Of a stretch of DNA of 64,000 nucleotides, positions 11,450-14,345 are shown piece by piece. The notes under the pieces are model-generated. The model was not told the DNA's origin and did no database searches. It worked only from the letters and a program-made list of their open reading frames with translations. The translations under genes and the position numbers were made by a program. Positions within the stretch are counted from its first letter, which is position 1, and every line of letters starts with the position of its first letter. The DNA is from Halothermothrix orenii H 168 (GTDB taxonomy: Bacteria; Bacillota; Halanaerobiia; Halanaerobiales; Halothermotrichaceae): NCBI RefSeq assembly GCF_000020485.1, contig NC_011899.1, forward strand, positions 22,501 to 86,500, in the 5' to 3' direction.

Positions 11450-11577
11450 ACGCAACTGCAGATAACAATATATTGCCGACTTCATTCCTAACGTCATTTC
11501 GTCCAAATCCATCAAACCAAGATAGGAGCTATCTAAGGTTTGATGGACTTCGGCAATACGGATACGTTATACGAAAT
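11450..11577 (+). repeat. attC6 (short subfamily)
   Basis: Left core GATAAC at 11461, right core GTTATAC at 11566. ATATTGCCG pairs with CGGCAATA; AAATCCATCAAACC pairs with GGTTTGATGGA. Bases 11452-11466 complement the cassette start at 10440 apart from the shared A-C mismatch. Confidence 0.88.
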
Positions 11578-11601
11578 CAATCTAAGAAAGGTTGGTTATT
11601 A

Positions 11602-12426
11602 ATGTCAGAGAAAAATTACAAATTAAAAATACCTAAAAAGGAAGCTGAAAAATATTTAAGTGAAAGAATTGAATTGGGTATTAAACTATATGAACGCAAA
11701 ATATCTACTATTGCTGAATTAGAGCAATCTAAAACTGAATATAAAAAATGGACAGCCTTTAATAAAGATTTGCTTGGAAAAATATTTGAAGAAAATTAAA
11801 TTATTGAAGATTATAATGGGTTTACTATTGGTGTTATAGGACATTATAGAGAACCTTTAGGACAAAAAATAAAAAGACATAAAGATATTATTAAGAAAAA
11901 AATTGAAGCTTTAGAATCTATAAGAGAAAGACTTGTTCTTTTTGAACATTTAGTACATACTGATGAAAAGGATGTGAAAACAGATAATAATAAAGTATTT
12001 ATAGTTCATGGTCATAATATTGAAGTAAAAGAAACGGTAGCTAGGACAATAGAGAAATTAGGACTTGAGGCAGTCATATTAAATGAAAGACCAAATACAG
12101 GGCAAACAATTATCGAAAAACTTGAGAATAATTCAGATGTTGGTTTTGCCATTATTCTTCTTACTCCTGATGACCTAGGAAAAGCTAAGTCAGAAGATGA
12201 TTATAAATATAGAGCAAGGCAAAATGTTCTTGTAGAAATGGGATATTTTATCGCAAAATTAGGAAGAGAGAAGGTATGTCCTATTTTTTTAGAAGAAGTT
12301 GAATTACCATCTGATTTTGATGGTATTTTATATGTGCCATATGACGCAAGTGGTAGCTGGAAATTTATATTAGGGCGTGAATTAAAAGCTGCTGGTTATA
12401 ATATAGATCTTAATGATATTGCTTGA
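11602..12426 (+). pseudogene. cassette 7: TIR-like nucleotide-binding protein, interrupted by a stop codon
   Basis: One continuous reading frame of 275 codons from ATG 11602 to TGA 12426, broken only by TAA at 11797-11799 (codon 66). Before the stop: MSEKNYKLKIPKKEAEKYLS onward, charged and helical. After it the frame goes on IIEDYNGFTIGVIGHYREPL and reaches a TIR-like domain: KVFIVHGHN (127-135), RPNTGQTIIEKLE, and RARQNVLVEMGYFIAKLG whose Glu is the likely NADase residue. A change of one base (GAA to TAA) explains the stop. A GTG at 11974 could restart and make the 150-residue TIR part alone. TIR proteins of this type act in antiphage defence by destroying NAD+ in known relatives. Confidence 0.82.
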
Positions 12427-12596
12427 TTGACTTCGTATAACACGGGATTTACGTGACGCCAAAGACCGGCTACCCTACGGGACATTGCCTTTGTTATGTC
12501 TTTTGCAGTCAGAGGGTATGAGGATTTGGGTAGCAAAAGCCATATCAACCCTAAAGGGGCGGCAACGTCGTAAATCCCTAGAACGTTAGGTGAAAT
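12424..12596 (+). repeat. attC7 (long subfamily)
   Basis: Left core GTATAAC at 12435, right core GTTAGGT at 12585. GGGATTTACG pairs with CGTAAATCCC; GGGACATTGCCTTTGTTATG and AAAAGCCATATCAA mark the long subfamily. Bases 12425-12441 complement the cassette start at 11566 in 16 of 17 positions. Confidence 0.88.
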
Positions 12597-12625
12597 ATGC
12601 TGGAGTAAAGAGCACGAGGGAGTAT

Positions 12626-12668
12626 GTCAAAAAAGCAGGTACCTCCTCGGACCTCCTACTTTTTTGAC
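12626..12668 (+). repeat. hairpin A of the ORF-less cassette
   Basis: GTCAAAAAAG pairs with CTTTTTTGAC and encloses a loop containing ACCTCCT twice. The loop core CCTCCTCGGACCTCC is repeated exactly in hairpin B. ACCUCCU is the anti-Shine-Dalgarno sequence of 16S rRNA, so an RNA copy would show ribosome-site-like complements in its loop. Confidence 0.6.
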
Positions 12669-12876
12669 TTGTGGGCTTGATTTAAAAAAAATAACTTACT
12701 TTCTGAAGAGTTTCTTGACGTTTCGAAAATGTTGAATCAGTTAGAAGCCATTAGTTTTAATATTAAATTCTATTAAAAATAATAATGATGTAAAAAGAAA
12801 ACCCAAAAAGAAGTTTTCATAAAATAATATAATTTTGTGTTTCAAATAGTAGAAGGAGAATTTAAAGTTTCTAGGC

Positions 12877-12921
12877 GCATGCCAAAACGGGCCCCTCCTC
12901 GGACCTCCCATTTTGACATGC
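12877..12921 (+). repeat. hairpin B of the ORF-less cassette
   Basis: GCATG-CCAAAA-CGGG on the left pairs with CCC-ATTTTG-ACATGC on the right around the same loop core CCTCCTCGGACCTCC as hairpin A. The stem sequence differs from A while the pairing is kept, as in a conserved RNA or DNA structure. Confidence 0.6.
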
Positions 12922-12925
12922 TTAA

Positions 12926-13009
12926 GCAGCATACTTCACCTAACACAGTGTTTTCGCTAACACTAAGCAAGAAATCTATAAATAAATGTCCGTTGCCCTT
13001 CGGGACATT
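12926..13009 (+). repeat. attC8, left half (cut by the IS element)
   Basis: Left core ACCTAAC at 12938; upstream bases 12927-12944 complement the cassette start at 12585 in 17 of 18 positions. It continues CAGTGTTTTCGCT and GCCCTTCGGGACATT as in the long subfamily and stops at the IS end. Confidence 0.8.
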
Positions 13010-13073
13010 TGACCTTCCCCCCATTTGTCGGACACTGGGTTTAGGTATATAATTAACCCAGGAGGTGCCCATA

Positions 13074-13366
13074 ATGGGAAGGAAAAAATATTCAGAAGAA
13101 TTTAAAAGAGAAGCTGTGGAACTTAGTTTTAGCTCGGATAAATCTTGCACAGTTATAGCAAAAGAACTAGGTATAAGTTATCATAATCTAATCAGATGGC
13201 GTAGGGAATACAAAAACAAAGGTGACTTAGCTTTCCCAGGCAATGGTAAACAAAAGTTAACCCCTGAACAGGAAGAAATTCAAAGACTAAAAAAAGAATT
13301 AAATGATATAAAAATAGAGCGTGATATATTAAAAAAAGCAGTGCGCATCTTCTCAAAGGAACCGAA

Positions 13367-13370
<4 letters not shown>
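13074..13370 (+). CDS. IS3-family transposase OrfA
   Basis: 98 residues from ATG 13074, which follows AGGAGGTGCCCATA. N-terminal helix-turn-helix of the IS3/IS911 type ([15 protein letters not shown] ... [15 protein letters not shown]) and a leucine-heptad coiled coil near the C-terminus ([21 protein letters not shown]) for dimerisation. Near its end lies AAAAAAAG at 13330-13337, a slippery run; a minus-one shift there would join it to OrfB, as known for this family. Confidence 0.9.
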
Positions 13371-14242
<872 letters not shown>

Positions 14243-14260
14243 TTTATTGGGGGAACCCCA

Positions 14261-14345
14261 AAGGGGTTGTTGTAGCATAAGTCATGCCAATCCTGGCGGA
14301 ACGGCAACGCAGGAAATGCCAGGACGTTGGCTGAAATCGGACAAG
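14261..14345 (+). repeat. attC right half after the IS element (from a different site)
   Basis: GCATAAGTCATGCCAATCC and GGAACGGCAACG match the right side of the long subfamily; right core GTTGGCT at about 14325-14331. GGAAATGCCAGG would need CCTGGCATTTCC as partner, but the left half before the IS reads CAGTGTTTTCGCT. The two halves therefore come from two attC sites. Confidence 0.78.

Follow-up and report, generated by a model that had tools for sequence, protein, structure and literature searches.

Why should a stretch of DNA that encodes no credible protein carry two hairpins with the same loop? The question is raised by a locus in Halothermothrix orenii, within a window of 64,000 nucleotides (the whole stretch of DNA analysed; contig NC_011899.1, positions 22,501 to 86,500) to which all coordinates below refer. 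The first-pass annotation had taken the locus for an integron cassette without an open reading frame, whose hairpins displayed anti-Shine-Dalgarno loops and which served either as a small RNA or as a structured DNA element. Its surroundings bear out the cassette. An integron cassette array occupies ~6.3 to 18 kb of the window, in which ten cassette starts follow R'-like boxes at 7–16 kb and attC-like folded sites occur along with genes such as those for a CAP12/TIR protein and a CAAX-type protease; across the loci compared here most neighbouring genes were named by reading alone, and some cargos were tested with Pfam. Integrons are reported as only occasional in Firmicutes (PMC9024848). We found neither the hairpin pair nor the H. 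orenii array described in the open-access papers searched, and the locus, an integron cassette by the features tested, may therefore carry a hairpin frame that is new.

The cassette spans 12585-12944, rather than the 12597-12926 first proposed. It opens with an R' box of the form GTTRRRY, GTTAGGT (12585-12591), which belongs to the attC-like site of the preceding cassette (12435-12591, minus strand), a site with R''/R' boxes and a strong bottom-strand fold of -45.8 kcal/mol. It closes with an R'' box, ACCTAAC (12938-12944), which matches the opening box. Both boxes are part of an extended terminal inverted repeat on the plus strand, whose left arm, GTTAGGTGAAATATGCTG (12585-12602), is 94% complementary to the right arm that ends in the R'' box (12927-12944). 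Inside the repeat lie hairpin A (12626-12668, minus strand), a cargo space of 209 AT-rich nucleotides without a credible gene (12669-12877), and hairpin B (12878-12920, minus strand). The cassette's own attC (12938-14322) is apparently split, as judged by sequence reading and ORFs, by an IS3-type element with two overlapping ORFs (13065-13370 and 13367-14242); its left part is present, the GTTGGCT at about 14326 is a right-hand R' box, and homologues carry the attC intact. The longest frames in the cassette, of 63 and 71 aa, are not credible, and only 4/9 homologues have the ATG of a short ORF that overlaps hairpin A (12624-12680, MSKKQVPPRTSYFFDLWA), in agreement with the earlier view that the cassette encodes no protein. 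Searches of the cargo space against homologue cargos with blastn and tblastn gave no convincing match.

The two hairpins share the loop CCTCCTCGGACCTCC, at 12642-12656 in A and at 12894-12908 in B. ACCTCCT does occur twice in loop A, as had been noticed, on the plus strand; the minus-strand loop reads GGAGGTCCGAGGAGG and presents GGAGG, not CCTCC, with two GGAGG motifs. Both hairpins fold better than dinucleotide shuffles (z from -2 to -5.6; as minus-strand DNA, -5.6 for A and -3.6 for B), whereas the whole 330 nt folded as one RNA does no better than shuffles (z -0.92). It is also possible that, on top of its variable stem, the minus-strand loop adopts the fold of a two-tetrad G-quadruplex (GG-A-GG-TCCGA-GG-A-GG).

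That the stems differ in sequence and keep pairing, a further point of the first-pass annotation, holds across a gap-free alignment of 14 hairpins. On the minus strand 96.9% of cells are paired and 12 of the 14 stem pairs change on both sides, with a covariation score of 0.841 against 0.231 +/- 0.037 in shuffles (0/500 shuffles as high). The aligned hairpins are not independent events, since relatedness exists within each of the three groups in the set (A copies, B copies and Acidobacteriota copies). Left out of the alignment were the B copy of one genome (G027), which has a one-base deletion, and three Acidobacteriota copies whose stem is offset. When the left arms of A were set against the right arms of B, only 5.5/15 pairs formed, and 8.7 in the reverse combination, against 12-14 pairs between true partner arms in Halanaerobiales under the same control.

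The alignment also tells the strands apart. Columns 11/33 form U.G on the minus strand in 13/14 hairpins, hence a mismatch on the plus strand, and across the aligned hairpins plus-strand pairing is weaker than minus-strand pairing. The minus strand folds better in 24/25 hairpins with DNA parameters and in 23/25 with RNA parameters. Because the fixed U.G pair is mismatched on the plus strand, the conserved folded strand is the minus strand. In attC this is the bottom strand, the one that recombines, and the top-strand attC hairpin has been called non-recombinogenic (PMC7923331). The anti-Shine-Dalgarno description of the loops is thus disfavoured, since the strand whose fold is conserved shows GGAGG and not CCTCC. 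The cassette ends have the same bottom-strand asymmetry as the hairpins. The layout of left and right terminal arms recurs in 42 cassettes, drawn from the window and from L160, L036, L138, L140, L141, L202, L162 and L236; their terminal repeats pair over about 17-19 bp, as against the 7 bp of the R boxes, with matches beyond the R box averaging 8.6/13 compared with 4.8 for mismatched cassettes. Position 11 of the terminal repeat is a bottom-strand T.G pair, an A.C mismatch on the other strand, in 76% of the 42.

Homologues were sought first by scanning for exact copies of the loop and next by searches of 59 genomes of the class, and the same hairpins turned up in other members of the salt-loving Halanaerobiales. 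The family has ten members, H. orenii included. Five cassettes carry both hairpins around a gene, in the Soudan_22 MAG (L036) and in G013 (L138), G017 (L139), G018 (L140) and G027 (L141), and four others have one hairpin only, some of them through decay or a contig end. A alone is present at L161, with Phd/ParE-type genes and no attC before A, at L202, where the gene behind it reads as a tyrosine recombinase, and at L231, where it is followed by a gene read as HAD-like at the contig end; L162, at a contig start, has a ParE-type toxin gene and then B alone. Where the neighbouring site is visible, the cassette start is closely followed by A, and B immediately adjoins R'' on the cargo side. The exact pattern was confined to Halanaerobiales among 398 genomes of the phylum, with no control matches, and the two-mismatch pattern occurred in 5/59 genomes of the class, with one control match each in G037 and G038. 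Covariance-model scores of 66.8 bits for A and 63.9 bits for B are those of the model's own training sequences.

The exact 15-mer matches listed mostly look like chance in GC-rich genomes, and only those with matching stems were kept; searches with a three-mismatch pattern were swamped by chance in such genomes, and covariance-model matches in G033 and G015 were judged to be chance as well. Seven exact core matches in viral contigs had no paired-stem design on inspection, and distant blastn of plasmids and phages gave no match. A divergent A-type hairpin (1e-7) lies directly behind an apparent group II intron 3' end in G008 (L232, 6954-6996); it may be a relative of A or a chance match.

The family keeps its ends and changes its middle. 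By BLASTN among the six two-hairpin cassettes the ends match between genomes at 73-95% identity over 45-196 nt, the conservation running beyond the hairpins to the cassette ends, and no match was found across the cargo. The cargos are mutually unrelated: by Pfam they include a ParE-type toxin, a nucleotidyltransferase-like protein, a methyltransferase and a CopZ-type zinc-binding protein, and Phd/ParE-type toxin-antitoxin genes are also among them. Five hairpin members are among the 42 delimited cassettes, and 10/10 pairs of these match at the ends and not in the middle, while other similar pairs match lengthwise or in short internal pieces; shared ends with unshared middles are found only in the hairpin family. 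The first-pass annotation had held that the same hairpins dispersed beside protein genes, along with the absence of a transcript on either strand, would speak against its RNA, and the part about repeats came out in this form, the hairpins flanking different protein genes in the cassettes of other genomes.

The same hairpin design and loop recur in a second setting, in Acidobacteriota, with GC-rich stems and one hairpin per site. A XerC-like tyrosine recombinase is present at L061/L194 and L052/L195 and a DnaG-like primase at L052/L195 and L049/L196, with similar genes, by reading, at L197. In most of the sites the loop start is followed after about 45 nt by a second palindrome, and most also have an AAC/GTT-type dyad, placed at about 100 or 165 nt. 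L194 has two copies of the site, with 94% identity over 432 nt and about 10 kb between them. We interpret these structured sites as putative recombination sites, and the loci with primase and recombinase could form a cassette-like system. They differ from the Halanaerobiales cassettes in being GC-rich, in having a single hairpin per site and in that no classical attC was recognised. Sites of three spaced palindromes, likewise GC-rich and often adjoining RHS-type genes, were seen at L194, L195, L196, L197, L200 and L201.

Four features, namely the strand, the placement at the ends of the cassette, a loop that is nearly constant and a cargo that varies, lead us to infer that A and B act as single-stranded DNA signals at the borders of a cassette frame with exchangeable cargo, of which the H. 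orenii copy is empty or decayed; we give this reading about an even chance of being right. The frame runs in fixed order from the extended terminal repeat through hairpin A, cargo and hairpin B to attC; in an excised circle attC would have B on one side and A on the other. A and B could serve as signals bound by a putative trans-acting factor at the stage of cassette movement in which the bottom strand is single-stranded, and might mark the borders for cargo exchange. The H. orenii copy is read as an empty or decayed frame because its 209 nt of AT-rich DNA resemble no cargo. Ordinary homologous recombination in the conserved ends could be an alternative route of cargo replacement. Of the two functions first offered for the cassette, the structured DNA element is thus favoured, and the small RNA with its anti-Shine-Dalgarno role is disfavoured.

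The strongest rival is an antisense or small RNA transcribed from the minus strand, whose GGAGG loops would have as their partner the anti-Shine-Dalgarno end of 16S rRNA or a protein that binds GGA, for example CsrA. RNA parameters too favour the minus strand (in the 23/25 hairpins given above), the loop has its two GGAGG motifs, and a weak promoter-like site lies on the minus strand at 12794-12767. However, the hairpins bracket plus-strand cargo and stand at recombination-site borders in two unrelated settings, Rfam at permissive thresholds gave no relevant match, and no terminator was found; we consider this RNA unlikely. A local structural role at attC, in which the hairpins would aid folding or limit SSB and the cargo would be swapped by homologous recombination, seems to us more doubtful. 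Hairpin B does adjoin R'', and ends of the identity and length seen here could support homologous exchange, yet other cassettes of the same arrays lack both the hairpins and the shared ends, and a loop that hardly varies points to a specific partner more than to a general part in folding.

Similar strand-specific hairpins at two ends also characterise IS200/IS605 and REP/RAYT elements, and A and B might likewise delimit a single-strand transposon that is non-autonomous and depends on a Y1 (HUH) transposase for its movement. Mobility of the ssDNA type would suit them, and an IS200/605 element has been reported adjoining the CALIN of a halophile (PMC7923331). In the two carrier genomes searched, H. 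orenii and G027, there is no Y1_Tnp (PF01797) match, which makes a Y1-type transposon less likely; moreover, the conservation extends outside the hairpins, so that the unit is the whole cassette end rather than a hairpin-bounded element, and we regard this origin as quite improbable. A small RNA from the plus strand, masking ribosome binding sites with CCTCC loops, draws on the two ACCTCCT motifs of loop A, but it has to contend with a weaker resemblance in loop B, with weaker pairing and a fixed-position mismatch in 13/14 hairpins, and with homologues that frame unrelated genes, and very little credence is left for it. Remnants of a repeated short coding sequence or leader peptide, readable in frame in both copies as M..K..PPRTS..F.D and with an SD-like GAGGGAG before copy A, can be dismissed almost entirely, as the ATG is not conserved (absent in 5/9 A copies) and the stem changes are compensatory.

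The border signals proposed here resemble known systems in part. Vibrio non-coding cassettes likewise lie in arrays, have no credible ORF and are conserved between species, but they are reported to be similar over their whole length (PMC1382264), whereas in the present family conservation is limited to the two ends, between which relatives have unrelated genes. Like attC, which works at the DNA level (PMC7923331), A and B keep a bottom-strand fold by pairing while the sequence varies; unlike attC, they are extra hairpins beside it, lack R/L boxes and have a 15-nt loop that is nearly invariant. A further resemblance is to the Acidobacteriota sites next to XerC-like and DnaG-like genes, which have the same hairpin design and loop and, in most cases, the AAC/GTT-type dyad downstream.

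Integron biology has yet to explain cassette genesis, the step in which a new gene becomes joined to an attC site, and a family whose cassettes retain their ends while the gene is replaced offers a natural example for studying it. In the furthest-reaching form of our proposal, which is possible though we would not expect it to hold, A and B would be a dedicated ssDNA system of cargo exchange, a route of cassette genesis, and would have their recognition signal in common with the uncharacterised Acidobacteriota recombinase/primase system. The loop common to both groups points to a recognition signal in two recombination settings, which makes a binding protein directly searchable.

The integrase genes bear on where the frame was acquired. 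At L231 the hairpin cassette is the first of its array. The gene that precedes it, at a distance of about 80 nt, is integrase-like and full-length (361 aa), and its two halves match the integron-integrase model with scores below the cut-off. Because of this position the hairpin frame was probably taken up at an attI-like site. In the H. orenii genome the best integron-integrase match is a C-terminal fragment only, so the element at 12585-12944 may be inactive in this organism. The CAP12/TIR cassette is present twice in the genome, at 11566-12441 of the window and at L160 (about 1.475 Mb), and despite the integrase being represented only by a fragment the two copies, whose arrays are separated by about 1.4 Mb, show 99.9% identity over 876 nt. 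Elsewhere in Halanaerobiia, integrases of ~360-390 aa (in G013, G017, G027, G028 and others) give two half-matches to the integron-integrase model of about 100 bits each, below the cut-off, and possibly form a divergent IntI clade.
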